17,370 bases of DNA from Flavobacteriales bacterium (GTDB lineage: Bacteria; Bacteroidota; Bacteroidia; Flavobacteriales; UA16), in assembly GCA_030831885.1 (NCBI GenBank), contig JAURKF010000009.1:1-17370 (forward strand). Direction: 5' to 3'. Below are positions 910-17,370 of the stretch, one piece after another. Position 1 is the stretch's first letter. Every line of letters starts with the position of its first letter. A model generated the notes under the pieces. That model was given only the letters and a program-made list of their open reading frames with translations. It had not been told where the DNA came from and did not search any database. A program made the position numbers and the translations under genes.

Positions 910-983
910 TTGAATTTTGAACTCAAATAGTTTCCATTGCATCACCGCATCACTAATAATTAAATTGCACAGAAATTTCACGT

Positions 984-1271: not shown

Positions 1272-1296
1272 TTTTGCAACCTGAACACCAATATTC

Positions 1297-2052: not shown

Positions 2053-2056
2053 ATAC

Positions 2057-2548
2057 ATGAACCACATTTCTGAAGCAGATATCTGGAGTTGGATGACGGA
2101 GGTATGTGATCCGGAAATTCCTGTGTTGAATATTGTCGAACTGGGAATTGTTCGACAAGTTTCAATGGATGCGGATAAGGTGCATATTATCATTACACCA
2201 ACCTATAGTGGATGTCCTGCCATGCGTACAATAGAAGAGGACATCGATGAAATTCTGAAGGAGAAGGGAATTGCTGATTCAGAAATTACAACCGTGCTTT
2301 CACCGGCTTGGACGACAGATTGGATGACCGATGAGGCTAGGGAAAAATTGCGACTCGAGGGAATTGCTCCGCCTCAACGGGGCAGTGCAGATAAGGGCCT
2401 AATTATGGGGCGTATTCGTGAGGTAAAATGTCCACGATGTGGTTCCATTCAAACACACATGATATCTCAATTTGGCTCAACCGCTTGCAAAGCGCTGTTC
2501 CGATGTGATAGCTGCCTTGAACCCTTCGATTATTTCAGGTGTATCTAA
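2057..2548 (+). CDS. paaD: Phenylacetate degradation protein PaaD (MIP18/DUF59 family with C-terminal zinc ribbon)
   Basis: PaaD is needed for an active epoxidase in characterised pathways and is thought to act in Fe-S or metal-centre maturation rather than catalysis. I place the start at the ATG at 2057, giving 163 residues (E. coli about 165). The frame is open further upstream, but starting there would overlap paaC by about 140 bp with non-homologous sequence. The N-terminal part is MIP18/DUF59-like: VCDPEIPVLNIVELGIV, and TYSGCPAMRTIEEDI with its conserved Cys. The C-terminus is a four-cysteine ribbon, CPRCGS followed by CDSC, with the family-typical FGSTACKALFRC and a final EPFDYFRCI. 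It is the last gene of the operon in this direction; a terminator starts 2 bases after its stop. Confidence 0.95.
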   Translation: MNHISEADIWSWMTEVCDPEIPVLNIVELGIVRQVSMDADKVHIIITPTYSGCPAMRTIEEDIDEILKEKGIADSEITTVLSPAWTTDWMTDEAREKLRLEGIAPPQRGSADKGLIMGRIREVKCPRCGSIQTHMISQFGSTACKALFRCDSCLEPFDYFRCI

Positions 2549-2550
2549 CG

Positions 2551-2576
2551 AAAAAAGGCCCGAATTCGGGCCTTTT
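2551..2576. terminator. Bidirectional intrinsic terminator between paaD and the convergent secreted-protein gene
   Basis: A perfect inverted repeat, AAAAGGCCCG / AATT / CGGGCCTTTT (2553-2576), begins just after the paaD stop and ends 23 bases before the stop of the convergent minus-strand gene. Read on the plus strand it is followed by only four Ts. Read on the minus strand the tract is six Ts (the As at 2551-2556). It can plausibly serve both transcripts, and is stronger for the minus one. Confidence 0.85.
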
Positions 2577-2599
2577 AAATTACAAGGTTATTTATGCAA

Positions 2600-5185
2600 T
2601 TAATGTTGAATCATTAAAGGGACAATGGATGAATTGTTTGCAGCATTGATTTTCACAACGTAGCATCCTGCTGCGAAGTGCTCGGTCGGAACAGTGATTT
2701 GGTTATAGCCACTCAACGTTTGAATATGCTGTCCGGCAACACTAACAATTGAGGCAGTGAATAGATTGTTGTCGGGGCTTTGAATGACGAATTGATTTTC
2801 CGCCGGGTTGGGGTAAATAGAAAAGCGAGTTACATCGTTCAGTTCGCCTGTGCTCAAGCAGGGATCAACGAAAATTAGTTGATTTGCTACGTTTACACAC
2901 CCTTGTTCATCGACGTACGTATAACTAATATTCTGTCCACCAGTGCCCGGAAGAGCAGGGTAGAAGATGTCGCCTAAGACACCATCACCGGAGAAAGATC
3001 CACCGGCAGGTTCACCAACGAGCTGGAAAGGTGGGTCGAAGGTGCAAACACGATCATCTGCTACAATTATCACTGTAGGAAAGAATAAAACCTCAATTGT
3101 TGCTGAAGAGGACGAGCCTTCGCAACCATTTTTGTCCATGATTACGTATTGTAATTCGTGGATACCGCCTCCGGCGATACCAGGATCGAATGTATTACCG
3201 ACAACACCTTCTCCAACAAAATAGCCGCCTTCAGGTAACCCGAGTAAATTCACGGGATTGCCTGAAACACAAACAGAATTTTGTGCAACAATCATGGAGG
3301 CCTCAGGTAACTCTATGAATTCAATCGTAACCGACTCGTTGCCTTCGCACCCATTAGGCCCTAAGGCTGTTGCTGTATAGGTTCTGGCGGTATCCGTAAG
3401 TAAAAATTCACCCTCTGTATGTGCCGGATCATTCCAAGAAAATGAAACACCCTCCGTTTCACTGGAGGCAATTAATTCAACCTGACCTTCACCACAGAAA
3501 GTAGTTGGACCCATCGGTGTTATAGTTACAAAAGGAACCTCAAGCGCTGTAACTTCTACCTTATTCGACATTCCCCAACAGCCTTCGATGTTGTAACCTT
3601 TTACGAATGCCAAATCAGTGGTATCAACTGTGGTAAGAAGGAAAGTATCGGCATTCATCCAAACATAATTATCCGCGCCACAAGCGGTGAAAAGAGCATC
3701 TTCTCCGTAACAGAATGTCGTATCATCGATGGTGTGAATAACAACATCCGGGTTGTTACAGTCGCTTAGGCGGGCATAGAATGCATCGGTGGTACCGTAG
3801 TTGATTTCTTCACCGAAAATCGAAGAATTTGTATAGCCTCCAATCATGACTTTTCCGAATCGATCGCTATCCATATGTCCAAACCAATCGTTACCTGTGC
3901 CTCCCATATAGGAAAGCCATTTCAACTCACCAAGTGTGCTGAATTTGGATATGAATGCATCTAAACCGCCTCCCAGATTTTCCTGAAATGCTTCTAGAAC
4001 ATCCAAGTTTCCTGAATCGGTTGTGCCTCCGACGTAAACATTCCCAAATACATCGACATGAATATCTTTAATATTCTCAATGCCGGAGCCCGTAACAAAT
4101 TGAGACCACAGCAATGTGCCTGTAGGATTGAAACTCATAAGCATTGCGTCGGTATTGTTGGGAGAAAGAATTCCCGAGTTGTCCAAAAAGGCTATAGGGC
4201 CTGAGTTGGTATTACCACCTACAATGAAATTACCTTGTATGTCGAGCGAAATACTATTGAATAAATCCGCTCCTGCGCCTCCGACGTATTCTGCCCAAAT
4301 AATTTGGAAATCGCTGTTTATGCAGGTGATAAATGCATCTGAAACACCGCCGAAATAAGGAATCGTGGTTAGGGAAGATAATATCTCAGCTCCTGAAGTC
4401 GCACCGCAAATGCAGAGGTTACCATCAACGTCAAAAGTTAAATCCTTAATCTCGTCGGTGCCGGTTCCACCCAAATATGAAAATTTATTGATTTGTCCGG
4501 TTGGGGTGATTTTAGCCAAAAAGCCATCGAAGGAACCCCCGCCATAGGAGGTCTGAAGTTGTGAATCGAATGGTACGGATTCTGAACCGGTTTTTCCCAC
4601 AATGATGATATTACCTTCTGAATCGATTGCCAGATCTTGAGTGTAATCGTCACCGTTTCCGCCGATATATACCGTCCAAACCAACTCACCGTCTTTGGTG
4701 AGTTTGCTGCAAAAGGCATCGCGGTTGCCGCCACCATAATTGGTTACAAGAGTGCCAAATGACATATTCGTAGAAGATGTGTAGCCAGTAACTACAATGT
4801 GATCGTCGCTAGTTACCGCAATTGCAGTGCAGAAGTCATTTCCGTTTCCTCCAATGAAGGTGCTCCAGAGAGATTGACCGTAAATATTCGATTTTGTAAT
4901 GAATCCGTCGAAATTACCTCCGAGATAAGAATTCAGCAAGAGATTGAGACCTATTGCGTCAGGGCCACTGACGTGCCCAACCGTGTAATTATTCCCCATG
5001 AATTCGCATGCGAGTCCTTCGGCCTTATCGGTGCCGGCGCTGCCTAATTGCGAAGACCACTGGATGTGGTGAGTATCAACGATGGGGGTAACTTGCCCGA
5101 AGGCCCAAAGTTGTGGTAAGAAGAGCGAAATGAGTAATGCGCCTCTTAAGACAAGTTGATTGATTTTTAGGTCTAGGTTTATCAT
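2600..5185 (-). CDS. Secreted SBBP beta-propeller and Ig-like protein with T9SS type A sorting domain
   Basis: Predicted cell-surface or secreted protein of unknown substrate. The start chosen (ATG, 5183-5185) gives 861 residues and a normal signal peptide: KINQLVLR then the hydrophobic GALLISLFLPQLWAFG, with likely cleavage before Q31. The frame is open to an ATG at 5257, but that start would place about 40 residues before the hydrophobic core. ATGs at 5209 and 5191 are also possible. Residues about 41-475 hold seven SBBP-type units with the motif W-x-x-x-[IVMF]-G-G-x-G-[ND]-[DE], consistent with a seven-bladed propeller. Next come Ig-like domains, two with the motif GG-x-F-x-G-x-G-V-x-G-x-x-F-x-P. 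The C-terminus (about 787-861) is a type A T9SS signal: FSIYPNPAENQF, SVAGQ, and FAAGCYVVKI. It faces the paa operon and shares its terminator. A Fur-like box lies upstream. Confidence 0.9.
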   Translation of the reverse strand: MINLDLKINQLVLRGALLISLFLPQLWAFGQVTPIVDTHHIQWSSQLGSAGTDKAEGLACEFMGNNYTVGHVSGPDAIGLNLLLNSYLGGNFDGFITKSNIYGQSLWSTFIGGNGNDFCTAIAVTSDDHIVVTGYTSSTNMSFGTLVTNYGGGNRDAFCSKLTKDGELVWTVYIGGNGDDYTQDLAIDSEGNIIIVGKTGSESVPFDSQLQTSYGGGSFDGFLAKITPTGQINKFSYLGGTGTDEIKDLTFDVDGNLCICGATSGAEILSSLTTIPYFGGVSDAFITCINSDFQIIWAEYVGGAGADLFNSISLDIQGNFIVGGNTNSGPIAFLDNSGILSPNNTDAMLMSFNPTGTLLWSQFVTGSGIENIKDIHVDVFGNVYVGGTTDSGNLDVLEAFQENLGGGLDAFISKFSTLGELKWLSYMGGTGNDWFGHMDSDRFGKVMIGGYTNSSIFGEEINYGTTDAFYARLSDCNNPDVVIHTIDDTTFCYGEDALFTACGADNYVWMNADTFLLTTVDTTDLAFVKGYNIEGCWGMSNKVEVTALEVPFVTITPMGPTTFCGEGQVELIASSETEGVSFSWNDPAHTEGEFLLTDTARTYTATALGPNGCEGNESVTIEFIELPEASMIVAQNSVCVSGNPVNLLGLPEGGYFVGEGVVGNTFDPGIAGGGIHELQYVIMDKNGCEGSSSSATIEVLFFPTVIIVADDRVCTFDPPFQLVGEPAGGSFSGDGVLGDIFYPALPGTGGQNISYTYVDEQGCVNVANQLIFVDPCLSTGELNDVTRFSIYPNPAENQFVIQSPDNNLFTASIVSVAGQHIQTLSGYNQITVPTEHFAAGCYVVKINAANNSSIVPLMIQH
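3761..5065 (-). repeat. Seven SBBP repeats (predicted beta-propeller)
   Basis: Seven tandem units lie within the minus-strand secreted protein. The aligned aromatic residue that opens each G-G-x-G motif falls at residues 43, 107, 170, 235, 297, 360 and 423 (numbered from the ATG at 5185), so the spacings are 64, 63, 65, 62, 63 and 63. Each unit also has a G-N-[IVF]-x-[IV]-x-G-x-T-x-S strand and a GG-x-x-D-[AG]-F segment. The unit number and regularity fit a closed seven-bladed propeller. Confidence 0.85.
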
Positions 5186-5254
5186 AGGCATACGTATTAA
5201 TAACACCATTCTATCATTGTTTCGACAGAAAGGATGTTGGAGTTCAACGTTCCG

Positions 5255-5262
5255 CAATTTTA
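5255..5262 (-). promoter_or_regulatory. Possible -7 element for the minus-strand secreted protein gene (weak)
   Basis: Read on the minus strand this is TAAAATTG, one mismatch from the Bacteroidota -7 consensus TAnnTTTG. If used, transcription would begin near 5248, which would exclude the ATG at 5257 and support a start at 5209 or 5185. I see no convincing -33 TTG at the right distance, so confidence is low. Confidence 0.25.
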
Positions 5263-5285
5263 CAATAAAAATTTTAAAATTAGTT

Positions 5286-5304
5286 GATAATGATAATTTT
5301 CATT
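5286..5304. promoter_or_regulatory. Fur-box-like 19-mer
   Basis: GATAATGATAATTTTCATT matches the classical 19-bp Fur consensus (GATAATGATAATCATTATC) at 15 of 19 positions, including the first 12 in a row. It lies about 100 bp upstream of the chosen start of the minus-strand secreted-protein gene and just upstream of its weak promoter candidate. The region is AT-rich, and Fur specificity in Bacteroidota is less well defined, so a chance match is possible. Confidence 0.35.
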
Positions 5305-5394
5305 GAGTATTCGTTCAGTTGAAGGAACTACGCATTGGAGTATGAATTTGTTTCGGTATGGTATTCACTTTGTCAAGTTTTTTTTTAAGTTTAC

Positions 5395-5424
5395 TTTCAT
5401 AGTATGAAAAAACTATTACATTTG
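5395..5424 (+). promoter_or_regulatory. Bacteroidota-type promoter for tRNA-Phe
   Basis: TACATTTG at 5417-5424 is a perfect match to the Bacteroidota primary sigma factor -7 consensus TAnnTTTG. A TTTC at 5395-5398 (18-bp spacer) can stand for the weaker -33 element. Transcription would start near 5431, a few bases before the tRNA 5' end at 5439. Confidence 0.7.
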
Positions 5425-5438
5425 CGCCCGCTTTCAGA

Positions 5439-5511
5439 GGTGCCATAGCTCAGTTGGTAGAGCAAAGGACTGAAAATCCTTGTGTCCCCGGTTCGATTCC
5501 TGGTGGCACCA
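5439..5511 (+). tRNA. tRNA-Phe (anticodon GAA)
   Basis: A full cloverleaf can be folded: acceptor GGTGCCA/TGGCACC (7 of 7 pairs), D arm GCTC/GAGC with the loop AGTTGGTA, anticodon arm AAGGA/TCCTT with loop CTGAAAA (anticodon GAA at 5472-5474), a five-base variable loop GTGTC, T loop TTCGATT, and discriminator A at 5511. CCA is not encoded. The T stem CCCGG/CCTGG has one C-U mismatch at its middle pair. A dedicated promoter and terminator make it a single-gene transcription unit. Confidence 0.95.
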
Positions 5512-5515
5512 CAAT

Positions 5516-5544
5516 AGCGAGACGGAAGTCTCGCTTTTTTTTTT
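5516..5544 (+). terminator. Intrinsic terminator of the tRNA-Phe unit
   Basis: Perfect 8-bp stem AGCGAGAC (5516-5523) / GTCTCGCT (5528-5535) with a GGAA tetraloop, running directly into ten Ts (5535-5544). It sits 4 bases after the tRNA and 16 bases before the aroB ATG, so aroB may be expressed by read-through or from a promoter I cannot identify. Confidence 0.9.
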
Positions 5545-5560
5545 GAGTCATCTTTGACCC

Positions 5561-6622
5561 ATGAAAATTACCCAGCCCAAATTTGTTCGCTCCGAAAAAA
5601 ACCTTTGTTCTCAGCTAGCGAGGCAATTGAATGGAAGGCGTTTTGTGTTGTTGATGGATGAGATGCTGAGTGAGAACTTTCTTTCGCTTTTAACTGAGTT
5701 TTTGGGAGCCCATTCAGCACTTGATATCATTGAGGTTGAATCTGGAGAGGCATGCAAAGCACCAGAGGTATGCTTCAACCTATGGGCTCATTTGCTGGAA
5801 CTGGGATTCACAAAGTCGGATGTGCTTGTGTGCGTAGGTGGCGGATCCATTTGCGATTTAGGTGGATTTGTTGCTGCAACATTTAAACGGGGTACACCCT
5901 GCATTTTCATACCAACTACACTGCTGGCAATGACCGATGCTGCAATCGGCGGAAAGAACGGGATTGATTTGGGAGCGGTTAAGAATGCAGTTGGCTCCAT
6001 TGTCCAACCGGAGGCCATTATTATTTATCCGTCGTTTTGCTCGACCCTTACAGATGAACAGTATATGTCGGGAATGGCAGAGATTTACAAACATGCACTA
6101 ATTGACGGTGGTGAATTTTGGCGAAATCTTAGTTTGATTAGTCCGGATAATCGAGATATAGACATTGTTTTACTTAGAAAGTCGATCCGGATAAAACTTG
6201 ATATCGTGCGTAAGGATGTCAGTGAAAACGGATTGAGAAAAATTTTGAATTTCGGTCATACAATAGGTCATGCGGTTGAGGCTGCATGTAGATCGGATGA
6301 TACATTTATGCCCCATGGTGTCGCAGTGGCCTTCGGAATGTTGGTTGAATCAAACGTTGCTAGGAAGATTGGACTTCTTGGTGAGGCTGATTACAAATCA
6401 ATCTCGCATGTTTTAAAGAATTCATTCAAAAAACTATGGATTGGTGTTCCTGAATGGAACGTGATCCTGCCATTTCTGCGGCACGACAAGAAGGCTGATT
6501 TCTCCGGAACAGATCTTTTTTTACCCCGGTCACCAGGAAATTTTGAAATTTTTCGAATAGATGACCAGGTTCAGATGCAGGTGTCTTATAATGAGGTTGT
6601 TGAGTCGATTGCGCTTGTCTAA
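5561..6622 (+). CDS. aroB: 3-dehydroquinate synthase
   Basis: Second step of the shikimate pathway: NAD+- and metal-dependent cyclisation of DAHP (3-deoxy-D-arabino-heptulosonate 7-phosphate) to 3-dehydroquinate in the cytoplasm. The 353-residue length is normal for bacterial AroB. Visible signatures are VGGGSICDLGGFVAATFKRG (residues 92-111, NAD-binding GGGS), IPTTLLAMTDAAIGGKNGID (117-136), the acidic metal-ligand region GMAEIYKHAL (E174), LNFGHTIGHAVE (H233, H237) and PHGVAVAFGM (H252). The probable metal ligands are E174, H233 and H252. FKRG and GGKNG, rather than the proteobacterial GGKTG, resemble Bacteroidota AroB proteins as I recall them. The gene stands alone between the tRNA terminator and a 318-bp gap; no other aro genes are next to it. 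Confidence 0.95.
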   Translation: MKITQPKFVRSEKNLCSQLARQLNGRRFVLLMDEMLSENFLSLLTEFLGAHSALDIIEVESGEACKAPEVCFNLWAHLLELGFTKSDVLVCVGGGSICDLGGFVAATFKRGTPCIFIPTTLLAMTDAAIGGKNGIDLGAVKNAVGSIVQPEAIIIYPSFCSTLTDEQYMSGMAEIYKHALIDGGEFWRNLSLISPDNRDIDIVLLRKSIRIKLDIVRKDVSENGLRKILNFGHTIGHAVEAACRSDDTFMPHGVAVAFGMLVESNVARKIGLLGEADYKSISHVLKNSFKKLWIGVPEWNVILPFLRHDKKADFSGTDLFLPRSPGNFEIFRIDDQVQMQVSYNEVVESIALV

Positions 6623-6940
6623 TGTTGATAAGTCGCGCCTGCTAATTCTTAGATGAACGACCTATATTTTTCGATAATTCCATCTTAAGGTTCTCTGTAT
6701 TGGTTTTTGGGTTGACTACCTAAAATGCAACTGATATTTATCAGCTGTAAATTGTTGATAAAAAGGGTGTTAATTGGACGATTGGCGGTTTTGTATCGAT
6801 GAATGTAGGCGCTTTCGTGTCTCGAGTAGAAAAAAATTTTGTTAGTTCATAAATTGTGATGATATATTCGCGCCGACTTGAATATTAACACTCCGGTGTT
6901 GAAACATTAAAAACACAATCACAAACCAAATCTCTTAATC
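6623..6940. other. Intergenic region between aroB and the giant HYR-like gene
   Basis: 318 bases with no plausible gene on either strand. It holds a short palindrome, CTGATATTTATCAG (6731-6744), and a candidate Bacteroidota promoter near 6838-6870, leaving a leader of roughly 60 bases before the ATG at 6941. I see no clear hairpin-plus-T terminator for aroB. Confidence 0.6.
6838..6870 (+). promoter_or_regulatory. Probable promoter of the giant HYR-like gene
   Basis: TTTG at 6838-6841 (-33) and TATATTCG at 6863-6870 (one mismatch from TAnnTTTG) are separated by 21 bp, within the usual spacing. The bases that follow, CGCC, resemble those after the perfect tRNA-Phe -7 box (CGCCC). The expected leader is about 64 bases. 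Confidence 0.5.
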
Positions 6941-9900
6941 ATGACTAAATTGTTACACGCAGTCAACTCGGCTTCGACGAGTTTAAAAACGTTAGCGCTA
7001 GCGATCGTGCTTGTTATCTGTGGAGCGAATGAAGCATTCGCTCAGCCTTCAATCAGTTGCCCTGATAATATCACGGTAAGCTGCCTTGAGGATATGTCCA
7101 ACTTCGACCTTGTGGGGTGGGTTTCCGTAAACAACCCGGATGGTTACGATGTTAACGTCAATTACGAAGATGTTTGGGGTAACTCGAATGGTAATCCATG
7201 CAGGAGAATTTATACTCGTACCTTCTTTGTTACTTTTAGCAGCGAGGAGTTGGGTATTGTTGAGACCCTCACTTGTAATCAAACGATTAAAGTTTTCGAT
7301 TTTGAGGGGCCTGTGTTTTTAGACAGTCCTGCCAGTGCTACTTATCAGTGTCCTCAGGAAGTGCCTGCTGAGCCTTCGTTGAGTGCCTATGATCGTTGTG
7401 GTGACGATGTGGTTGTAGAGTCATTCGGCTCTAATACATCTGCCGATGATACGTTAGTTTGTAATAGTGTTTCTACTCCGAATGGCCCTGGTCAAGATTG
7501 GGGTCTTTGGATTAATGGATTGTATCCTTCCCTTGCATCGACCAATTGGTACCGCTGGGTTGGCACACCAAGTCTCGTATTCAGTAATAATGGCGAGGCT
7601 CGCCTGATTGGCGACGTTGTAGCTATGAACAACCCTTCAAACGGTTGGCATGTTGATATGACAATGAATGATGGTAAGAATTGGGCACAATGGTCGGCTG
7701 CAGGTGGAAATTATTATGACAACCTCGGTCTGGGCGCTGCAACTCATACATCATGGAATTTCTATAAGCTTGTAACTACTATTTCACGATTGGAAGGCTT
7801 TGGTGCTTTCGAAGGTGACCAACTTATTCTTTCCCACCAGCCGGCCAACTATTACTACGGTTTCCAGTTTGGCAATGGTGCAAACAACCGCAATAGCCAA
7901 AATGGTGGTAGTGGTTGGTTCTTCTATTCAGGTCATGTTGATGGTGTAGATGTGAACGGTCATGGTGATGTTACACTTCAAATAGGATGTGAACCAGTTG
8001 ACCCACAAAACCCAAGTGATGCTTGTGCTCAGACTATCGAGCGCAGATGGTCAGCTACTGATGCATGTCAGAATGTAACATACTATACTCAGGTTATTAC
8101 AGTTGACGATACAACTGCTCCCGAGATTACGTGTCCGGAAAATGTAACTGTGAGCTGTGTTTCTGAAGTTCCGGCTGCTGTGAATGTTGCTGATATCACT
8201 GCTGTTGACAATTGCGGCGGCGAGGTTCTAGTAACTTACCTTGGCGAGCAAACAGCTGCTCAAGGTACTTGTAATTATGTAACTACGCACTCATACATGG
8301 CAGAAGACAACTGTGGTAATCGTTCATTCTGTTCATACACCATTTCTGTAAATGATGATCAGGCTCCTGTTTTGTCAGTGCCTGCTGATTATACAATTGA
8401 ATGTTCGGAAGACTTAGTACTGGAAGGTGCGTCGGCTGTGGACAACTGTTCGACTGCCCTTGAAATTAGTGAATTTACAGAGACGGTTCAACAGGATTGT
8501 ACAACAATATATTACCGCAATTTCTCGGTTAGCGATGAGTGCGGTAACACGTCATCTGCAATTCAAACAATTACTGTTAGCGATACAACTCCTCCTGTAT
8601 TGCAGGTACCTGCCGGGTACACTGCTGAATGTAGCAGCGACTTGGTATATGAAGATGCATCAGCTACTGACAATTGCACGGACAATCTAACCATATCTGT
8701 GGACGTTAATACACAAACAGACGGAAACGATTGCGCATACACAATTACACGCACCTTCAGTGTTACGGATGAGTGTGGAAACACCTCCAGCGCTGTTCAG
8801 GTTATTGAGGTTATTGATACTGAGGCTCCATCATTTGAAAATTTGAGCGGTGCTTACTATGTTGAGTGCAATGCTATCTACGACGCGGCTTGGACTTCCC
8901 CTGCTGCTATTGATAATTGCGATTCAGATTTGACTTACACATACAGTGATGAAATGACTTCAGGTGGATGCTTGGGAACAATTCATCGTACGATTACCGT
9001 TACAGATAACTGCGGAAACTCAGATACCGAAGTATTTGTTATTTACATCCAGGATACTACTGCTCCTGTGTTTACATCTATACCTGCCGATGCAACTGTA
9101 GAGTGCAGCAATGTGCCTGCAGCTCCGGGAGTTGAGACTGTGGTGGCAGTTGACAATTGCGGTGATGGATCTGCAATCTATGGCGATTATGCTGAGGGCA
9201 GTAATGCGAATGTTAACATCACTTTTGAGCAGCAAACAATTGCTGGTGATTGTCCCGGCAACTACACAATTCTATGGATTTGGACAGCTGCCGATTACTG
9301 TGAAAATGCCACATCAGACACAACAACCATTTCTGTCGTTGATGAGTCAGGTCCTGTCTTTGTTGATACCCCTGAAAGTATTACTGTTGATTGTGGTGAC
9401 CCGCTTCCGGGTACAGAAATAGTTACTGCAGTTGATAATTGTTCAGAGGAACCAGTAATTGTAATTTACACGGATAATGCTATGGGTGGAAGTTGCGCCG
9501 GTCAGCAGCTGGTTGAGCGTGTATTCACCGCTACAGATGCTTGTGGCAATTCTACTTCCATTACAATCGACATCTTCGTTGAAGATACTCATGCTCCTGT
9601 TTTTGCTGATGACAACCTAACTTCATTCACCTATGAGTGCAATGAAGTAATTGAGGTAATTACTCCGGCTGTTGAGGATGATTGCAGCGGTGTTGAATTA
9701 ACCTATTCAGATGATGTAACAGGCGAATATTGCAATCAACAAATTGCTCGCATTTGGACCGCTACCGATGGTTGTGGTAATCAATCAACCCTTGTTCAGT
9801 ACATTACCGTATTGGATACTCAGGATCCAACTATTGACTTTGCAGCGGAAATTGAGCGTCCATGCGATGATTATATGGGTGTATATGCAACTGCTACCGA

Positions 9901-12900
9901 CAACTGCGATAGCAGTGTTGAAGTGGTTTGGGAAGGCGATCAGTTTGTAGGTAATACCTGCGCAGGTCAAATCATTCGCTCTTATTCTGCTACAGACGAT
10001 TGTGGAAACAGAACCGATGTTCAACAAATCATTGAGCTCTATGACACAACTGCTCCTGTTGCTACCAGTGTTGTAGAAAACATCACGGTTGAGTGTGGTA
10101 ATGAAATTCCTTCTTACTCACCTAACTGGGTTGATAACTGTGCCAGTGAATTGACAACGGATTTCTCGACTACAGAGGAATTTGATGGTTGTACAACTAC
10201 TATTGTAGAGACGTACAGCGTTTCTGACCCATGTGGTAACACGAATTCAGCAACACGCACCGTAACAATAGTAGATACCACTAATCCGGTTATTGAAAGC
10301 ATTCCTGCTGATGCAACTATCGATTGTGATGACACAGTTCCTGCACAAGGCGAGGTAATTGCTTACGATAATTGTGATACTGACTTGTTGGTAGGTGTTG
10401 AGGACGTAACTGTTCCAGGCAACTGTGCCGGTTCTTACTTGATTGAGCGTACCTATCGTGTGATCGATAATTGCGGAAATCAGGCAGTGGCTATTCAGAA
10501 TATTTATGTGGTTGATTCTACTGCTCCGATGTTTAGTTCGGAGAACCAAATGGACTTCAGCTATGAGTGTAATGAGTCAATTCCGGTAATCACTCCTATT
10601 GCAGAAGACAATTGCAGCGACTTTACTATATCTTACAATGACGGCGTTCAAGGTGACGAATGTGCTACCTACATCAGCCGTGTATTTACTGCTACAGATG
10701 CCTGTGGTAATCAATCTCAATTTATCCAGAACATCACTATTTCTGATACCGAGGCTCCTGTAATTAAATTGGAGTCTGTAATCAGCCGTCCATGTAATGA
10801 TTATATGGATGTCTATGCAACTGCTGCCGACAACTGTTCTGAAGATGTGACCATTACGTATGCAGGTCCGGAAGAACTTTTCAGTGGCGCTTGCGCTGGT
10901 GAAATTGTTCGCACCTACATCGCTACGGATGCATGTGGTAACACATCGACTCAAATTCAAACCATCTATTTGACCGATGATATCGCTCCGGTTTGCTCAA
11001 ATGCGCCTGAAGCTGTCAACGTAGAATGCGGTCAATCAGTGCCTGCTTATTTCCCAAGTTGGTCTGATCAATGCGATGTTGAGCTTGATTTGAATGAAGC
11101 TTCTGTGGAAGAAAGTGATGGATGCACAACTACCATTACGACTACCTATACTGCAACCGATGATTGCGGTAATGTTGGAACTGTTGTTCGTGTTGTGAAC
11201 ATAGTTGATACAACTGCTCCGGTAGCTTCAAATGTTCCCGCCAATGAGTCAATCGAATGTTCGATTTTCAACTCCGAGACTTCTGTGGCTGCTCCAACTT
11301 TCACAGACAATTGTGGCGGTGATCTTAACGTAACTTCGAATATGACTGAACAATCGAATGGTTGTGAGCATATCTGGACTTACACTTGGACTGCAGAGGA
11401 CGCTTGCGGAAATGCTACAACTGTTTCTGCTGAAATTACAGTGTTTGATGCTACCAGCCCGGTGTTTACATCTGTTCCTGCAGGAGGTTCATTCACATGT
11501 GATGGCGGTATCAACTTCGGTGAAGCTACCGCTGCTGATGGTTGTAGCAATGTGGTAGTTTCTTACGACGATCAATTCTTCGCAGGTAACTGTCCTCAGT
11601 CCTACACTATTGTTAGAACATGGACAGCTGCTGATGCTTGCGGTAATACTGAAAGCGCATCAGCGGAATACATTGTAACCGACGAGGTTGCTCCGATATT
11701 TACATTCTTCCCTGCGGATGTAACATTGGAATGTGGCACCGCTTTACCATCTTCAGAGGCTACAGCATTTGACAACTGTGGTAACACCTTGGTAGTTTAC
11801 AACGATGCATTTATTGCAGCAGACAATTGCACTTCTATTTATGAGCGCACCTACACTGCAACGGATGAATGCGGCAATGCTACTTCTCAAGTTCAAGTTA
11901 TTTACTTCCAGGACACAACTGCACCTGTTGTTACCGGTGATGCAACCATCTATGTTGCTTGTGAAGAGTTTGATAGCGAAGGAATTTATGTTGAAGCAAC
12001 CGACAACTGCGGCAGTGCTACAATTACTATCATGTACGATGAAGCTTCCGGCGTTGGATGTGCAAATTCAGTAGTTCGTCACTATATGGCTATCGATGAG
12101 TGCAACAACACTTCATACTTTGATCAAAACATCGTAGTTACCGACTCTCAAGCTCCTATCGCTTCGATTGATCCTGATGATATCACCGTAAATTGCTCAG
12201 ACGAGTGGGCTGCTGCCACAGTGGAGTTCATCGACAATTGTGACTCTGAAGTAAGCGTTTCAACCGATGTTGAGACAGTTGGCAATTCTTGCTCTATGAT
12301 TTATCACTACGTTTGGATTGCTTCTGATGAATGTGGCAATGTGACTGTAGTTGATCAGTATGTTACAGTGATTGATGAAGATGCTCCTGTATTCGATATC
12401 GAGAGCAGCGAAGTAACAGTTGAATGTGGCACCGAAGTAATCTTCCCAACACCTTCAGCTATCGACAATTGTGCTGGTGAGGTGGAAGTAGCCTACTTCG
12501 AAGAGGTAACAGGCGGTAACTGCCCATCGAACTACACTATTACCAGAACATACTCAGCTGAAGACAACTGCGGGAACAGCTCATCTGTATCCTTTACTGT
12601 AAATTATGTTGATACTACTGCGCCAGTTTGGTCTGAAAACAATTCTGCATCGTTTGTATACGAGTGTGGTGAAAATGCCGAGGTTACAGAACCTTCTGCC
12701 TCAGATTGCAGCTCTATAGAATATACTTACTCTGATGGTGAATTTGTTTCTAATGGTTGCACGGGTTATTTAGTGCGTAGTTGGACTGCTACCGATGCTT
12801 GCGGCAACTCAAGCAGTTCATTTAACCAAACCATCAGTTTCGAAGACACTACTGCTCCTGTGCTTGATGGTTGCCCTGCTGAAGTGGTAACATTAGCTTG

Positions 12901-14005
12901 TGATGCTGAAGTTCCTGCTCCTGCAGATGTTACTGTGACTGACAATTGTGATAGCGATATTACAGTTACTTTCAATGAGACTTGCGTAGGTTGTCCGGAA
13001 GAAGGTTCAATCTCTTATGACTTGTACACTCCACAGCGTCCTGCTGCAAACACTTGCAACTACCCTAACGATTGGGCAATTGCTTTGTTCAGCTTGCCAA
13101 GTGCTTATCGCTGGTACCAGATTGACACAACTGTTCCTGCCACTATTACTTATAACGATGATGCTACAATCACCCTTAGCGGTCGTGTTTTCAACGTAGT
13201 TTATCCTGATGGTGGTTTTGACTTCAACGTAACTTATGGCAGTGGTCAAGATTGGAATACTTGGTTCAACGTAATGCCTCCAAGCGGTTTCAAAGCTGAT
13301 TGTGGTGGTGTTAGTGCTAACTACGCTGATTGGATGTACTATATCATGCAGGCTGGTAACGCTCAATTGACCGGATGGGGTTCATTTGCAGGTTCATCAT
13401 TGAATCTGACTCATGCTCCTTCCAACCAGTACTTCGGTTTCCAGGTGGGTGAAGGTGCCAACAACTACAACGCAGATTACGGTGCAGGTGGTTGGTTTAA
13501 CTACAGCGGATTGTTCTTGTACCAGGGTCAACCTGTAAGCAGCGGTTTGGCCGGCGGTATCGGTGACTTTGCGTTCCGTATCGACAACTGTCCATCTTAT
13601 ACGATTACTCGCTCATGGACAGCAGTTGACTGCTCAGGCAACGAGTCTTCTTGCACACAGGTTCTGAACTTTAACTTTGAGGAAACTTCTGTTGCCGGTA
13701 TGGATATGCTCAATGAAGGCAACGAAGCTCCACGTGATGAAGAAATTGCAATTGTTGGAATTCAGCCTAACCCGGCTAATAATCACTCTGCAATCACATT
13801 CATGAGCACTGTGACCGGTAACTTGACACTCGAGGTGTTGGATATGACAGGCCGTGTGGTTGGAAGCTTGTTCAACCGTTCTGCCGAAGCTGGAGTTGTT
13901 TATACCGCAGATTTCGATGCTAGTCAATTGTCTACTGGTATCTACATGGTGCGCTTGAGTTCAGGAACTACATTCCAGATTGAGCGTTTGCAAATTCAGA
14001 AGTAA
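6941..14005 (+). CDS. Giant secreted HYR-like repeat protein with T9SS type A sorting domain
   Basis: A 2354-residue predicted surface or secreted protein; its ligand is unknown. Residues 1-34 are a signal peptide (LKTLALAIVLVICG, cleavage AFA before Q35). A divergent N-terminal unit follows, then about 22 HYR-like Ig units of roughly 76-96 residues. The unit motif is DTTAPV...PADxTVEC...AxDNC...C...Y.I.RTWTATDxCGN...Q.I.V.D, and most units have four cysteines, suggesting two disulfides each. Two copies of an unrecognised domain interrupt the first and last canonical units (residues about 173-350 and 2023-2217). Residues about 2273-2354 are a type A T9SS signal: GIQPNPANN, LEVLDMTGRVV, LSTGIYMVRL and a basic end (ERLQIQK). 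Each partner in export (SprA-type translocon, sortase-like PorU) lies elsewhere. It has its own probable promoter and terminator. An adhesin or matrix role is inference from architecture; no catalytic motif was seen. Confidence 0.93.
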   Translation: MTKLLHAVNSASTSLKTLALAIVLVICGANEAFAQPSISCPDNITVSCLEDMSNFDLVGWVSVNNPDGYDVNVNYEDVWGNSNGNPCRRIYTRTFFVTFSSEELGIVETLTCNQTIKVFDFEGPVFLDSPASATYQCPQEVPAEPSLSAYDRCGDDVVVESFGSNTSADDTLVCNSVSTPNGPGQDWGLWINGLYPSLASTNWYRWVGTPSLVFSNNGEARLIGDVVAMNNPSNGWHVDMTMNDGKNWAQWSAAGGNYYDNLGLGAATHTSWNFYKLVTTISRLEGFGAFEGDQLILSHQPANYYYGFQFGNGANNRNSQNGGSGWFFYSGHVDGVDVNGHGDVTLQIGCEPVDPQNPSDACAQTIERRWSATDACQNVTYYTQVITVDDTTAPEITCPENVTVSCVSEVPAAVNVADITAVDNCGGEVLVTYLGEQTAAQGTCNYVTTHSYMAEDNCGNRSFCSYTISVNDDQAPVLSVPADYTIECSEDLVLEGASAVDNCSTALEISEFTETVQQDCTTIYYRNFSVSDECGNTSSAIQTITVSDTTPPVLQVPAGYTAECSSDLVYEDASATDNCTDNLTISVDVNTQTDGNDCAYTITRTFSVTDECGNTSSAVQVIEVIDTEAPSFENLSGAYYVECNAIYDAAWTSPAAIDNCDSDLTYTYSDEMTSGGCLGTIHRTITVTDNCGNSDTEVFVIYIQDTTAPVFTSIPADATVECSNVPAAPGVETVVAVDNCGDGSAIYGDYAEGSNANVNITFEQQTIAGDCPGNYTILWIWTAADYCENATSDTTTISVVDESGPVFVDTPESITVDCGDPLPGTEIVTAVDNCSEEPVIVIYTDNAMGGSCAGQQLVERVFTATDACGNSTSITIDIFVEDTHAPVFADDNLTSFTYECNEVIEVITPAVEDDCSGVELTYSDDVTGEYCNQQIARIWTATDGCGNQSTLVQYITVLDTQDPTIDFAAEIERPCDDYMGVYATATDNCDSSVEVVWEGDQFVGNTCAGQIIRSYSATDDCGNRTDVQQIIELYDTTAPVATSVVENITVECGNEIPSYSPNWVDNCASELTTDFSTTEEFDGCTTTIVETYSVSDPCGNTNSATRTVTIVDTTNPVIESIPADATIDCDDTVPAQGEVIAYDNCDTDLLVGVEDVTVPGNCAGSYLIERTYRVIDNCGNQAVAIQNIYVVDSTAPMFSSENQMDFSYECNESIPVITPIAEDNCSDFTISYNDGVQGDECATYISRVFTATDACGNQSQFIQNITISDTEAPVIKLESVISRPCNDYMDVYATAADNCSEDVTITYAGPEELFSGACAGEIVRTYIATDACGNTSTQIQTIYLTDDIAPVCSNAPEAVNVECGQSVPAYFPSWSDQCDVELDLNEASVEESDGCTTTITTTYTATDDCGNVGTVVRVVNIVDTTAPVASNVPANESIECSIFNSETSVAAPTFTDNCGGDLNVTSNMTEQSNGCEHIWTYTWTAEDACGNATTVSAEITVFDATSPVFTSVPAGGSFTCDGGINFGEATAADGCSNVVVSYDDQFFAGNCPQSYTIVRTWTAADACGNTESASAEYIVTDEVAPIFTFFPADVTLECGTALPSSEATAFDNCGNTLVVYNDAFIAADNCTSIYERTYTATDECGNATSQVQVIYFQDTTAPVVTGDATIYVACEEFDSEGIYVEATDNCGSATITIMYDEASGVGCANSVVRHYMAIDECNNTSYFDQNIVVTDSQAPIASIDPDDITVNCSDEWAAATVEFIDNCDSEVSVSTDVETVGNSCSMIYHYVWIASDECGNVTVVDQYVTVIDEDAPVFDIESSEVTVECGTEVIFPTPSAIDNCAGEVEVAYFEEVTGGNCPSNYTITRTYSAEDNCGNSSSVSFTVNYVDTTAPVWSENNSASFVYECGENAEVTEPSASDCSSIEYTYSDGEFVSNGCTGYLVRSWTATDACGNSSSSFNQTISFEDTTAPVLDGCPAEVVTLACDAEVPAPADVTVTDNCDSDITVTFNETCVGCPEEGSISYDLYTPQRPAANTCNYPNDWAIALFSLPSAYRWYQIDTTVPATITYNDDATITLSGRVFNVVYPDGGFDFNVTYGSGQDWNTWFNVMPPSGFKADCGGVSANYADWMYYIMQAGNAQLTGWGSFAGSSLNLTHAPSNQYFGFQVGEGANNYNADYGAGGWFNYSGLFLYQGQPVSSGLAGGIGDFAFRIDNCPSYTITRSWTAVDCSGNESSCTQVLNFNFEETSVAGMDMLNEGNEAPRDEEIAIVGIQPNPANNHSAITFMSTVTGNLTLEVLDMTGRVVGSLFNRSAEAGVVYTADFDASQLSTGIYMVRLSSGTTFQIERLQIQK
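7457..7990 (+). other. Unrecognised inserted domain, copy 1
   Basis: Residues about 173-350 of the giant protein, rich in W, Y, N and G and lacking the Cys pattern of the HYR-like units. Its best conserved block (residues 286-331, bases 7796-7933) begins GFGAFEGDQL and includes YYGFQFGNGANN and GWFFYSG. That block aligns without gaps to copy 2 at 26 of 46 positions by hand count. The copy interrupts a HYR-like unit between its DRC segment and its RRWSATDACQN segment. I cannot assign a named family; a carbohydrate- or surface-binding module is only a guess. Confidence 0.7.
8114..12850 (+). repeat. Array of 20 intact HYR-like units
   Basis: Twenty consecutive units of 76-96 residues (1579 residues in total) lie between the two interrupted units. 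Boundaries recur at the D-[TSED]-x-[AGNS]-P motif, for example at 8114, 8360, 8588, 8822, 9059, 9347, 10280, 11213 and 12851. Each unit normally carries four Cys in the order EC, DNC, C and CGN. Unit 5 (9059-9346) is the longest at 96 residues. Units 2 and 3 (8360-8821) are close neighbours in sequence and probably a local duplication. Confidence 0.9.
9347..11212 (+). repeat. Duplicated four-unit super-repeat (2 x 933 bp)
   Basis: HYR-like units 6-9 (9347-10279) and 10-13 (10280-11212) form two adjacent blocks of exactly 311 codons each. Matching units share features not found elsewhere in the array: unit 7/11 has YECNE...VITP, unit 8/12 has RPC[DN]DYM and VYATA, and unit 9/13 has DGCTTTI. 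Hand counts give 40/77 identical residues for units 7 and 11, and 37/77 for units 9 and 13, both without gaps. Confidence 0.85.
13007..13591 (+). other. Unrecognised inserted domain, copy 2
   Basis: Residues about 2023-2217 of the giant protein. The conserved block (residues 2145-2190, bases 13373-13510) begins GWGSFAGSSL and contains YFGFQVGEGANN and GWFNYSG, equivalent to the copy 1 block. It interrupts the last HYR-like unit: TVTDNCDSDITVTF lies before it and CPSYTITRSWTAVDCSGN after it. It is followed by the T9SS tail. Confidence 0.7.
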
Positions 14006-14024
14006 TTGAATTGCTGATATTTAT

Positions 14025-14058
14025 AAAAGCGCCCTCCATTCGGGGGGCGCTTTTTTTT
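14025..14058 (+). terminator. Intrinsic terminator of the giant HYR-like gene
   Basis: Stem AAAAGCGCCCTCC (14025-14037) pairs with GGGGGGCGCTTTT (14042-14054), with one G-U pair and an ATTC loop, and runs into eight Ts (14051-14058). It lies 19 bases after the stop codon. Confidence 0.9.
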
Positions 14059-14240
14059 GATTCTTTTTATTTGTGGTTTCGATGTCTAAGTGGAGTGTTT
14101 AATGAGTTATTTTTAGCAAATTTGTGTTGTGCTTAATCTATGAATCGTTTGACTAATAATAATTTAGTGACCACACTCCATTTTCTGTATTCTATCGATT
14201 TCTCGGAAACATTCCTTTTATTAACCGCATCGGAATAATT

Positions 14241-17200
14241 GTGCAACAGCTAATCCCGATATATCTGCTTGCAGTTCTTTCCATTTTTTCGTTTGGAAAT
14301 GTTTCAGCACAGCTTACATGCCTGAACTGTCCCGGGCGGGATACTACCTCCTACACGAACGGAGCTGATGATGATAGCTTGTTTTTTATTTGCCAAGGAG
14401 CAACAGCCGGCTTGCGTGTTCATTGGGATACGGGTGAATTACAAAATGTGCAGTGGTATCGTTTTATATCTACTACCAATACCTGGTTACCTATACAATT
14501 TCAACAACAAGTTGCCCAAGGGAGTTATTTAGCTTCTGTTGGCGGCTATCGTGCTGTGGTCACTAATTCGGAAGGCGAGGTTACATATGATGATCTTTGC
14601 TGGGTTTCACGCGTGAATTCTCCGGCCCTTGTAAATGCGAACACGCTTCAGCCCGGATGCAGCACAGTGCAACTGGCCGGTTTGTTCTTCACTGGGAACA
14701 TTAATGGTTATTACAACCCCCCGCCTTTGAATTTCAATGATTCCTATTTTTTTAATGAGAATACTGAGATACAGGTATGCGTGGATATAGAACATCCGAT
14801 AATGGCGGATTTACGCATTGAACTGGTGTCGCCTCCCGAGTGTGGTTCGGTTCCTATACTTCTTACAGATGCTCAAACTCCTGCTGAAGTTGATACGGTT
14901 TGTTTTAATGAGAATGCAGCGAATCTTTGTTTTAGTAATAGTTCTGATGTGAATTATTTCCTGTGTGATCTTCCCTATGCGACGGTTACCGGAAATTATG
15001 GCTCGTATGGTGCGACACCTCAATTGATAGATTGGACGCCTTTGGTTGGTTGTGATATTACCTCTCCGGGATGGCAGTTGAATATCTATGATTGTTACGA
15101 AGGAGCTGCCGGTTATGTAACAGATCTGTCTATTGTTATATCGGATGATTCAGCGTTTTCGACACCCTATATTCAATATTTCGAGCCTGTCGATAATGAG
15201 GATATCGTTATTCAGGATTCAGGATGTGTAAATGGAGCGCATACTTCCATTTTGATGGAGCGTCCTTATCCGAATTCCACCTTTATTGGTCAAAATATCG
15301 GTGTTCAATGGACTGCCGATCCGCCTATTGATTTTGGAGGTAATGCCAATGACCTCTATGTTCTGCTTAGTCCAGGGCCAACTCAGGATACCTATTTCAC
15401 ACTTTCCATTACCAACATTCAAATTGGTGAGGTCTGCGGAGTGACTCCCTATGATGTTGAATTTTATGATTACATCCCGCCTGACTCATCCGTGATTGCG
15501 GTTACGGATAGTATTTTGTGTCTGACGGATGAGCCGTTGTTGCTGCAATCCAGTTTCCCACAAGGTAGTTGGGGCGGGCCGGTAAGCGCTGATGCCGATA
15601 GCGCCTATTTTGATCCTGCTTCTGTCGGCGAAGGAATGTGGACGGTCACTTTCGATCCAACTTCGAGTTGTATTGAACCAACTGAGGTACATGTCTATGT
15701 TTATTCTGCGCCGAGTATTTCGCTGCCTAATCCTTCACCTTTCTGTAACACGGATGAAATGGAAACCTTTGAAGCACTTCCTCCCGGCGGGGTATGGAGT
15801 GGCGCAGGTATCGTGGATTCCATTGCAGGCGTATTCGATCCGAGCTTAGTTAATGGTGGTAGCTCTGTCATCAGCTACACGGTGGGTGAATATTGCCCCA
15901 GTCAGGCTACTTTTCAGACCGAAGTCGAGGAGTACATTCCTTTGCAAATAGTTCAGGTTGACAGTATTCACTTATGTGAAAGTGGAGCGACGTTGAATTT
16001 TGAAGCAAACCTGTCGGGCATATTTTGGGCTGGTGATGGCATTACCTCGTCGGAGCAAGGTTTTTTTAATCCTTCTGTTGCCGGGGTGGGAGTGCATCAG
16101 GTTATTGCTGCATACCATCAAGCATGTGATGATAATGATACTACGTGGGTTGTTGTTGAAGATGCATTCATACAAATTCAAGAGTTGAACCCTGTATGCG
16201 TGAACTCCGACACAGTTGCGTTGAGCGTTGTGGCTACTGAGGGAACGTGGTCGGGCTTGGGAATAGTTGATTCATTGTTGGGTATTGTAGATCCCACTTT
16301 GCTGAATCCGGGTGAGTATTTCTTCACATATACGTTGCTGAATTCCTGCGGTTCAGCTGATAGTGTTTCAATGCAGGTACAGGATTTTCCTACTATTCAA
16401 ATAACGCTGCAAAATGGTATTTGTATAGATCAACCATCAACACTCGTTCTTGCCAATCCTAGTGGAGGTGTTTTTTCGGGTTCTGGTATCGAGCAGCAGA
16501 ATGCGCAATGGTTTTTTAGTCCCGAGGCAGCAGGTGTTGGTGAGTCAATCATTCAATACGACTACTCCGGTGTTTGCACTTTATCGGTGATTGATTCTAT
16601 CGAAGTTTTTCCCCTCCCTGTTCCTGTTGTTTCGGCTGATACAACAATCTGTCCGGAGGGCGAAGCTGTTATTTCGGTAGCGGGTGTGGTCAGTTGTCAA
16701 TGGTCTCCTGCTGCATCGTTGCAATCTCCGCTGCAAACAATGACAGTAGCTCAACCTGATGTAACTACAACCTATACAGTTTTGGGAGAATCAGAAAATG
16801 GCTGCTATGCTTCAGCGGAGCTAACCGTCGAGGTCTATGAATCGCCCATTGTGACTACCAATGCGCCCTTGGAATTGTGTTATGGAGAATCTGATTTGCT
16901 TTCAGCAAATGGTCTCACAAACGTTGTTTGGTCCGGACCAAACGTTGAAAGTCCTGATGAATTATCAACGGTCATTTCTCCGATTGAAACTACGACATAC
17001 TCGGTGAGCGGCACGGATGAAAATGGATGTGTCGGTGAAGCCACCGCGGAGGTGATTGTATATAATCCGATGGCGTTTTTCACCGCTTCAGATACCTTGG
17101 GTGTTCCGCCAATGGAGGTAGAACTCACAAATCTTTCTGAAGGTGATTTTTTTGTCTGGGACCTTGGTAACGGTGATACAATCATTACGACGAATATTGC

Positions 17201-17370
17201 TGAAATTGTCCCCGCTATTTATCAGGGTGAACAAAGCCATTCCATCACATTGACTGCTTATTTGAATGGTTGTCCGGAAGAATACAGTATCAACCTTGTG
17301 ACCTATTACGATTCAGAGCTGCTTATTATTCCGAATGTTGTAACTCCAAATGGTGATACGAAAAATGATA
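14241..17370 (+). CDS. Secreted multidomain Ig/PKD-like protein with C-terminal CHU_C (T9SS type B) domain, 3' partial
   Basis: A predicted secreted or surface protein; at least 1043 codons with no stop before the window end. The frame has no early ATG. I take GTG at 14241, which gives the signal peptide QQLIPIYLLAVLSIFSFGNVSA (cleavage before Q24). An ATT at 14220 would add NRIGIIV and a positive charge, so the start is uncertain. Residues about 152-303 resemble a proprotein-convertase P-domain (ADLRIELVSP, WQLNIYDCYEGAAGYVTDLSIVI). Five 75-76-residue Ig-like repeats with G-x-[WF]-x-G follow, then two Ig-like segments ending TTTY[TS]V and a PKD-like domain (VWDLGNGD). The last residues, IPNVVTPNGDTKND, match the start of the gliding-motility-associated CHU_C domain. 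It follows the giant HYR-like gene in the same direction but behind a strong terminator, so is probably separately transcribed. Confidence 0.88.
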   Translation, partial: MQQLIPIYLLAVLSIFSFGNVSAQLTCLNCPGRDTTSYTNGADDDSLFFICQGATAGLRVHWDTGELQNVQWYRFISTTNTWLPIQFQQQVAQGSYLASVGGYRAVVTNSEGEVTYDDLCWVSRVNSPALVNANTLQPGCSTVQLAGLFFTGNINGYYNPPPLNFNDSYFFNENTEIQVCVDIEHPIMADLRIELVSPPECGSVPILLTDAQTPAEVDTVCFNENAANLCFSNSSDVNYFLCDLPYATVTGNYGSYGATPQLIDWTPLVGCDITSPGWQLNIYDCYEGAAGYVTDLSIVISDDSAFSTPYIQYFEPVDNEDIVIQDSGCVNGAHTSILMERPYPNSTFIGQNIGVQWTADPPIDFGGNANDLYVLLSPGPTQDTYFTLSITNIQIGEVCGVTPYDVEFYDYIPPDSSVIAVTDSILCLTDEPLLLQSSFPQGSWGGPVSADADSAYFDPASVGEGMWTVTFDPTSSCIEPTEVHVYVYSAPSISLPNPSPFCNTDEMETFEALPPGGVWSGAGIVDSIAGVFDPSLVNGGSSVISYTVGEYCPSQATFQTEVEEYIPLQIVQVDSIHLCESGATLNFEANLSGIFWAGDGITSSEQGFFNPSVAGVGVHQVIAAYHQACDDNDTTWVVVEDAFIQIQELNPVCVNSDTVALSVVATEGTWSGLGIVDSLLGIVDPTLLNPGEYFFTYTLLNSCGSADSVSMQVQDFPTIQITLQNGICIDQPSTLVLANPSGGVFSGSGIEQQNAQWFFSPEAAGVGESIIQYDYSGVCTLSVIDSIEVFPLPVPVVSADTTICPEGEAVISVAGVVSCQWSPAASLQSPLQTMTVAQPDVTTTYTVLGESENGCYASAELTVEVYESPIVTTNAPLELCYGESDLLSANGLTNVVWSGPNVESPDELSTVISPIETTTYSVSGTDENGCVGEATAEVIVYNPMAFFTASDTLGVPPMEVELTNLSEGDFFVWDLGNGDTIITTNIAEIVPAIYQGEQSHSITLTAYLNGCPEEYSINLVTYYDSELLIIPNVVTPNGDTKND
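15486..16613 (+). repeat. Five tandem 75-76-codon Ig-like repeats
   Basis: The motif G-x-[WF]-x-G recurs at codons beginning 15564, 15789, 16017, 16242 and 16467, so the spacings are 225, 228, 225 and 225 bases. In each unit a D-S or similar segment and FDP/FNP/VDP/FSP follow about 10 residues later, then a G-x-x-x-[IVF]-x-Y strand. No gap of more than one codon occurs over four periods. Confidence 0.85.

Follow-up and report, generated by a model that had tools for sequence, protein, structure and literature searches.

An unnamed module inserted in split HYR-like units at both ends of a long type IX secretion cargo protein of Flavobacteriales

Background

A 17,370-nucleotide stretch of DNA from a Flavobacteriales bacterium (GenBank assembly GCA_030831885.1, contig JAURKF010000009.1, positions 1 to 17,370, forward strand; the whole stretch is hereafter the window) encodes a protein of 2354 amino acids (aa) in which a long array of HYR-like units is flanked by two copies of a module of approximately 180 residues. 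A preliminary description made from the letters alone had proposed that the two copies belong to one unnamed family, that they interrupt the first and the last HYR-like unit at the equivalent point and that the result is a symmetrical stalk with a module at each end. The question raised by this locus is whether the modules are true insertions in an immunoglobulin (Ig)-like host and, if so, what a protein built in this way might do. The same anatomy is familiar from RTX adhesins where, according to two reports (PMC12077191, PMC10865825), ligand-binding domains are recognized by the fact that they bud from split Ig-like domains and are held off the axis of the rod. The reading favoured here, to which we assign a probability of roughly 0.55, is that the protein is a fibrillar surface protein of the type IX secretion system (T9SS), built as a split-domain adhesin with two ends and a different gripping module on each.

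Results and discussion

Two modules interrupt HYR-like units

The features of the protein, all on the + strand, are given below; match positions refer to an HYR profile of 79 positions that was built on the window's own units and extended over homologues.

6941..14005, +: open reading frame (ORF) of 2354 aa, HYR-like T9SS cargo bearing both modules (ORF list; HYR_4C, Por_Secre_tail and TIGR04183 matches)
7043..7240, +: weak HYR-like unit preceding the N-side split host, residues 35-100 (19.6 bits, model 4-65 of 79)
7298..7441, +: N-side split HYR-like host, first part, residues 120-167 (model 1-48, 30.0 bits)
7457..7993, +: N-type module, residues 173-351, 179 aa (module profile 207 bits; AlphaFold2 model of the region)
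7796..7933, +: N-type conserved block with H299, Q309, N315, N318 and W326 (block alignment, column conservation)
8012..8104, +: N-side split HYR-like host, second part, residues 358-388 (model 48-78, 39.5 bits; joined flanks 58.2)
8108..12838, +: array of 20 complete HYR-like units, residues 390-1966 (window-derived HYR profile)
12845..13000, +: C-side split HYR-like host, first part, residues 1969-2020 (model 1-52, 45.4 bits)
13043..13591, +: C-type module, residues 2035-2217, 183 aa (module profile 231 bits; AlphaFold2 model of the region)
13373..13510, +: C-type conserved block with H2158, Q2168, N2174, N2177 and W2185 (block alignment, column conservation)
13598..13669, +: C-side split HYR-like host, second part, residues 2220-2243 (model 54-77, 29.3 bits; joined flanks 66.9)
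13766..13993, +: T9SS type A C-terminal sorting domain, residues 2276-2351 (Pfam and NCBIfam, both above the curated cut-off)

At both ends the flanks joined across the module scored higher than either half, with the break near model position 48 on the N side and 52-54 on the C side, and therefore the same HYR loop is interrupted in both hosts. By eye, the break falls between the strand that follows the second cysteine and the third cysteine. AlphaFold2 models of the two regions, each covering the module together with its host, had pLDDT (predicted local distance difference test) scores of 90.4 and 89.4 and fit a barrel-like module that buds from a split Ig-like host. The models thus favoured a split host over complete HYR folds on either side, the outcome that would have spoken against the proposed insertion, and the profile scores bore out the earlier claim that the host resumes after each module. 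An Ig-like domain interrupted by a whole module and then resumed, the anatomy of a split-domain adhesin, is accordingly shown for the window by the profile and supported by the models.

The array between the modules consists, as had been proposed, of 20 complete units, which typically have four cysteines each. The placement of the modules in the first and the last unit held for the last only; the N-side host is the second unit, since the weak stretch at residues 35-100 precedes it. The Pfam model HYR_4C (PF23237) matched 21 stretches of the ORF with 309.9 bits against a cut-off of 27, while HYR (PF02494) itself reached 18.4 bits, below its cut-off of 21.7. Both models describe the stalk unit that HYR repeat proteins share with the window protein, not the inserted module. 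The first 34 residues resemble a Sec signal peptide by eye, and the C terminus matched Por_Secre_tail (PF18962; 38.7 bits, cut-off 27) and the T9SS type A sorting domain TIGR04183 (33.1 bits, cut-off 23). The C-side host is the last HYR unit ahead of this domain, and only the C-type module adjoins it. There was no RTX family among the seven families listed by the Pfam scan of the ORF to E 1, and the C terminus is occupied by the T9SS domain. The protein is classified, from these matches, as T9SS type A cargo and, because it is without the defining C-terminal RTX feature, not as an RTX adhesin.

The junction was also scored in 103 proteins, the window protein and 102 homologues. The main homologue search admitted proteins of 0.55 to 1.75 times the length of the query (approximately 1300-4100 aa) and so favours long two-copy proteins. 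For the 88 copies in the C role, a partial HYR match was found upstream in 87, downstream in 88 and across the joined junction in 85, and the junction match exceeded the better half by more than 5 bits in 72. The corresponding numbers for the 88 copies in the N role were 69, 88, 49 and 38. In proteins with a single copy (n = 15) they were 13, 15, 13 and 13, with the downstream match starting at the beginning of the model in two, and the only middle copy scored positive in all four respects. Other Bacteroidota HYR proteins therefore carry the module at the same position, a point that the preliminary description had asked to be checked. On the N side the split is demonstrated by profile in those 49 of 88 copies, the remaining hosts being too diverged for the HYR profile.

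Two old types of one module

The two modules are copies of one another. Translation and alignment of the window confirmed that the 46-residue blocks align without gaps at 26 of 46 identities, and over the whole modules 49 of 163 positions are identical (approximately 30%). The BLASTP E value of 2e-21, obtained in a single pairwise comparison, indicates that the likeness is not due to chance. A single module profile detects both copies and none placed them in different families, in agreement with the proposal of a common family.

That the module has no convincing match to a named family was likewise upheld. When 24 diverse members of the module were compared with Pfam, the best E values were 0.0032 (Cip1-like) and 0.0039 (DUF2612, 17.6 bits against a cut-off of 23.5), each from one member, and the best value against NCBIfam was 0.043, again from one member. 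DUF2612, Cip1-like, the MiiA motif and the netrin receptors were considered as the module family and set aside as chance, the matches being weak and confined to one member each. Foldseek found nothing at E <= 0.001 for the N model against the PDB or for the C model against BFVD. FrhA and RbmA appeared in the top PDB rows at noise-level scores and were retained as a lead only, not as support. The absence of a family from the VIA-align lists was taken as no evidence for a new fold.

Conservation was examined in 84 two-copy proteins, P0069 being omitted since its C copy falls outside the C clade (see below). Twenty-one columns exceed 80% in both the N and the C sets, among them H299/H2158, Q309/Q2168, N315/N2174, N318/N2177, D343/D2209, three tryptophans and many glycines. 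Conservation at the five polar positions (H, Q, N, N, D) is above 90% in both sets, which suggests a common binding chemistry.

A tree was built by a quick method without bootstrap from 82 modules of 41 two-copy proteins, thinned at 72% identity from the 85 in which both copies exceed 140 aa. The N and C labels change only twice on this tree (mean of shuffled labels 27.7; 0 of 500 shuffles as low), and the C copies of 40 of the 41 proteins form one clade with a Shimodaira-Hasegawa-like approximate likelihood ratio (SH-aLRT) support of 95, the exception being the C copy of P0069. Mean identity is 0.41 among N copies and 0.40 among C copies, and between N and C copies it is 0.32 within one protein and 0.31 between proteins. 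The two copies must therefore have separated before the proteins spread, without subsequent homogenization. In a second tree, rooted with distant relatives from Flavobacteriaceae, the C clade stands with a support of 95 and 51 rows, which include 10 modules from one-copy proteins and one from a phage contig described below; for the N copies no single clade is resolved, and the labels change six times. Most long relatives have thus inherited two old module types together. The symmetrical stalk of the preliminary description is correct in that a module is nested at either end, while the word symmetrical is overstated because the divergence of the two ends is old and the sorting domain has a module, the C copy, beside it at one end only.

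Distribution of the modules

According to the module profile, 87 of the 103 proteins have two copies, one (P0048) has three and 15 have one; fragments of a module less than 100 aa apart were merged in the two-copy tally (P0082, P0096), from which P0048 and the one-copy proteins were excluded. Between the two copies there are 6-29 complete HYR units (823-2683 aa). In all 87, the stretch from the C copy to the C terminus measures 110-157 aa and contains no complete unit.

Genomes with the module numbered 6 of 395 in a sample of the phylum, 104 of 299 in a sample of the order and 90 of 114 in one family, the positive genomes of that family having 1-21 matches each. These tallies count the module and not the N/C pair and include the centre genome; scoring in the phylum and order samples was limited to the best 8 or 11 first-look candidates of each genome. 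Among the 41 loci obtained by scanning genome contigs, 40 were titled as metagenome-assembled genomes (MAGs) of Flavobacteriales, Crocinitomicaceae, Bacteroidetes or Chryseobacterium and one as Roseivirga. The carriers of paired modules are mostly uncultured Flavobacteriales. Close relatives also occur in records titled as a Chryseobacterium gleum MAG (L001, L003, L010, L020, L027); these titles may be misassigned, most other relatives being from uncultured Flavobacteriales. In six carrier genomes there were 36 to at least 150 TIGR04183 matches compared with 8 to 21 module matches, and the module therefore belongs to a minority of type A cargo.

Some loci hold more than one such gene. In L010 (5000-19741) two consecutive two-copy genes are followed by a third with one copy visible before the end of the locus, a tandem expansion, and in L040 two two-copy genes are adjacent.

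A proposed two-ended adhesin and its alternatives

The adhesin reading starts from what the sequence shows and the models support, a rod formed by 20 HYR units with, at each end, one HYR unit that is split in the same loop and from which a barrel-like module of some 180 residues buds. The split host would hold the module sideways off the rod, as in RTX adhesins, with a free face available for a ligand. If the protein is anchored, the N-type module would lie at the distal tip and the C-type module at the base, some tens of nanometres apart given the lengths of Ig domains. If it is released, it would be a double-ended linker with the C-type module at the other end. Type A C-terminal domains (CTDs) have been reported to give either static anchoring or release (PMC12618676). 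The ligand could, as a guess, be a glycan of algae, of cyanobacteria or of the cell's own matrix.

In the RTX adhesins FrhA (Vibrio cholerae), MpIBP (Marinomonas primoryensis) and AhLap (Aeromonas hydrophila), too, a module interrupts one Ig-like domain of a long Ig-like rod and buds off the rod; these adhesins are exported by a type I secretion system (T1SS), have an N-terminal retention domain and carry their binding domains towards the C-terminal, distal end (PMC12077191, PMC10865825). The window protein differs in its T9SS type A export signal, its HYR rod, its module family and its arrangement of one module per end of the array. By this analogy it may function like an RTX split-domain adhesin. 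SprB and RemA of Flavobacterium johnsoniae are also T9SS surface adhesins and RemA likewise has a type A CTD; SprB, unlike the window protein, ends in a CTD of type B, and the gliding machinery carries it along (PMC12618676).

Several observations weigh against this interpretation: 1) the split-domain rule originates in RTX adhesins, which use a different export system, 2) no relative of known structure was found by comparison with PDB sequences (best E 0.28), 3) 39 of the 88 N-role copies have no match that spans the joined flanks, and in 33 of 88 the downstream match starts at the beginning of the model and so represents the next unit rather than the resumed host, 4) one or two HYR matches lie ahead of the N copy in 26 of the 87 two-copy proteins, including the window protein, and therefore the array does not strictly begin with the N copy, 5) two copies are not required, since 15 of the 103 long proteins, some of them named 'partial', have one, as do all 54 proteins found in a search with a phage-borne 567-aa relative, and 6) there is no support for the two ends working together. 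The last point rests on the distance matrices of the N and C modules, which are correlated (r 0.684; 0 of 2000 permutations as high). Distances between the sorting domains correlate equally well with those of the N and C modules (0.71 and 0.73), and the partial correlation of N with C given the sorting domain is 0.34. This control shows that the N and C modules were inherited as one gene, and physical coupling of N and C was dropped as a claim.

Four other explanations were weighed. The modules could be structural end caps that protect or space the ends of the Ig-like rod without binding any outside ligand, the C-type module also aiding the sorting domain in T9SS export or anchoring. The invariable position of the C copy near the C terminus, with no complete unit after it, is tighter than an adhesive tip needs, and the N copies are found close to where the array begins. 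Caps nevertheless seem unlikely, since C-type modules are far from the C terminus in the one-copy proteins P0011 (251-433 of 1949) and P0021 (683-863 of 2031), the five polar residues are more conserved than a cap would seem to need, and the bulk of type A cargo in the six genomes manages without the module. It is rather less likely still that the N- and C-type modules bind each other, giving head-to-tail fibres or mats or allowing the tip of one cell to dock on the base of another. Their pairing and joint inheritance in 87 of the 103 long proteins and the presence of several genes per genome, some adjacent (L010, L009, L040), would suit such binding, but the correlation between them comes largely from sharing a gene and C-type modules occur without N-type ones.

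It is improbable that the barrel-like module is an enzyme or a small-molecule carrier (dirigent, lipocalin or avidin-like) that the stalk presents at its two ends. The residence of both copies within one repetitive gene might raise the suspicion that the second arose by recent internal duplication or as an assembly artefact; this is refuted by the tree, in which the copies, 30% identical, group with the N and C copies of other proteins, respectively, and Tandem Repeats Finder listed nothing at score 50.

The two-ended adhesin is therefore retained as the preferred reading. A more ambitious version of it, which we regard as tentative, is that these proteins are a split-domain adhesin class of their own in T9SS bacteria: an unnamed barrel module of two anciently diverged types would be fixed in one and the same loop of the HYR units that begin and end a double-ended linker of approximately 20 Ig units, with which a whole family of aquatic Flavobacteriales would hold two different partners simultaneously, a short one-ended version being carried by a phage. 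Literature searches found no report that joined the HYR domain with T9SS in Bacteroidetes, HYR-like with Bacteroid- or split domain with type IX secretion, and nothing related, judged by title and the start of the abstract, on the HYR domain in Flavobacteri-; among the matches listed there was no hyalin-repeat paper on Bacteroidota adhesins and none with both HYR and T9SS. On split domains in adhesins, two papers were relevant, judged by title. If the adhesin reading is true, the split-domain rule published for RTX adhesins extends to T9SS proteins of Bacteroidota. The unnamed module, which now has a profile, a set of conserved polar residues and two models, becomes a concrete candidate for binding. 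A rod of variable length whose two ends always bear the same pair of old types is an unusual and testable architecture, and there is a handle on surface display in some uncultured Flavobacteriales.

Short relatives and a distant module family

A 175-kb phage contig, IMGVR_UViG_3300008267_000005, with genes for terminase, tail sheath, RNA ligase and thymidylate synthase, encodes the 567-aa HYR_4C protein used in the search above (L042:9194-10894, +). Its single module is of the C type and falls within the C clade, and its match to a T9SS tail is below the cut-off (E 4.6e-4, 20.9 bits against 27). Scans of viral contigs revealed no module carrier besides this one. Among the 54 proteins of the short search, 26 start with M and 28 do not, and several of the former begin inside a unit, so that many are contig fragments. 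Those that look complete are P0170-P0172 (554 aa) and P0175 (790 aa). P0170-P0172, encoded on other contigs, are 100, 81 and 75% identical to the phage protein over the module region and consist of two full units, a split unit with the module and a C-terminal tail, for which a Por_Secre_tail match is listed in P0172 only. In P0175 the split unit is preceded by three full units and a partial one.

A distant form of the module was recognized in proteins of Flavobacteriaceae (Winogradskyella, Hyunsoonleella, Changchengzhania) with an hhalign probability of 97.8 and an E value of 9e-13 over 144 columns. All 67 of these proteins match the module profile, 65 with one copy and two with two, but HYR_4C is in none of their Pfam annotations; those that were aligned have a lipoprotein-like start by eye. 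When 16 were scanned against Pfam, no match could be explained as the module; DUF7467 matched four and, in L056, lies outside it. The module thus exists outside HYR rods and was presumably captured into them.

Two further occurrences were noted. A Roseivirga MAG protein (L038:1396-6525) has three module copies that, by eye, lie within or next to another kind of repeat, one that lacks the HYR cysteine pattern. In a 537-aa protein from another Bacteroidota genome (L057:487-2100), DNCS and REWTVTDAAGN segments enclose a very distant copy (E 9e-6), which by eye again lies within an HYR-like unit.

Neighbouring genes

One gene follows the ORF in the window:

14241..17369, +: downstream gene, cut by the window end (tblastn against L001-L042; the L001 homologue ends in a T9SS type B sorting domain)

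It had tblastn matches in 3 of 42 loci, L001, L002 and L003 (55, 46 and 53% identity), many loci not extending that far, and the L001 homologue matched the type B sorting domain TIGR04131 with 46.4 bits against a cut-off of 35. In these three loci the order is the two-module gene, a protein of approximately 1113 aa and then a gene of the rhomboid family (regions L001:12675-13430, L002:4799-5560 and L003:4401-5147) that matches rhombosortase with 27-29 bits, below the cut-off of 84; the window stops short of the rhomboid gene. Upstream, a 3-dehydroquinate synthase-like gene has a match in one locus, L001 (58%). The minus strand at 1-2548 and 2600-5257 carries what we take to be phenylacetate-degradation-like genes and also a separate SBBP-repeat protein with a T9SS sorting domain (Pfam).
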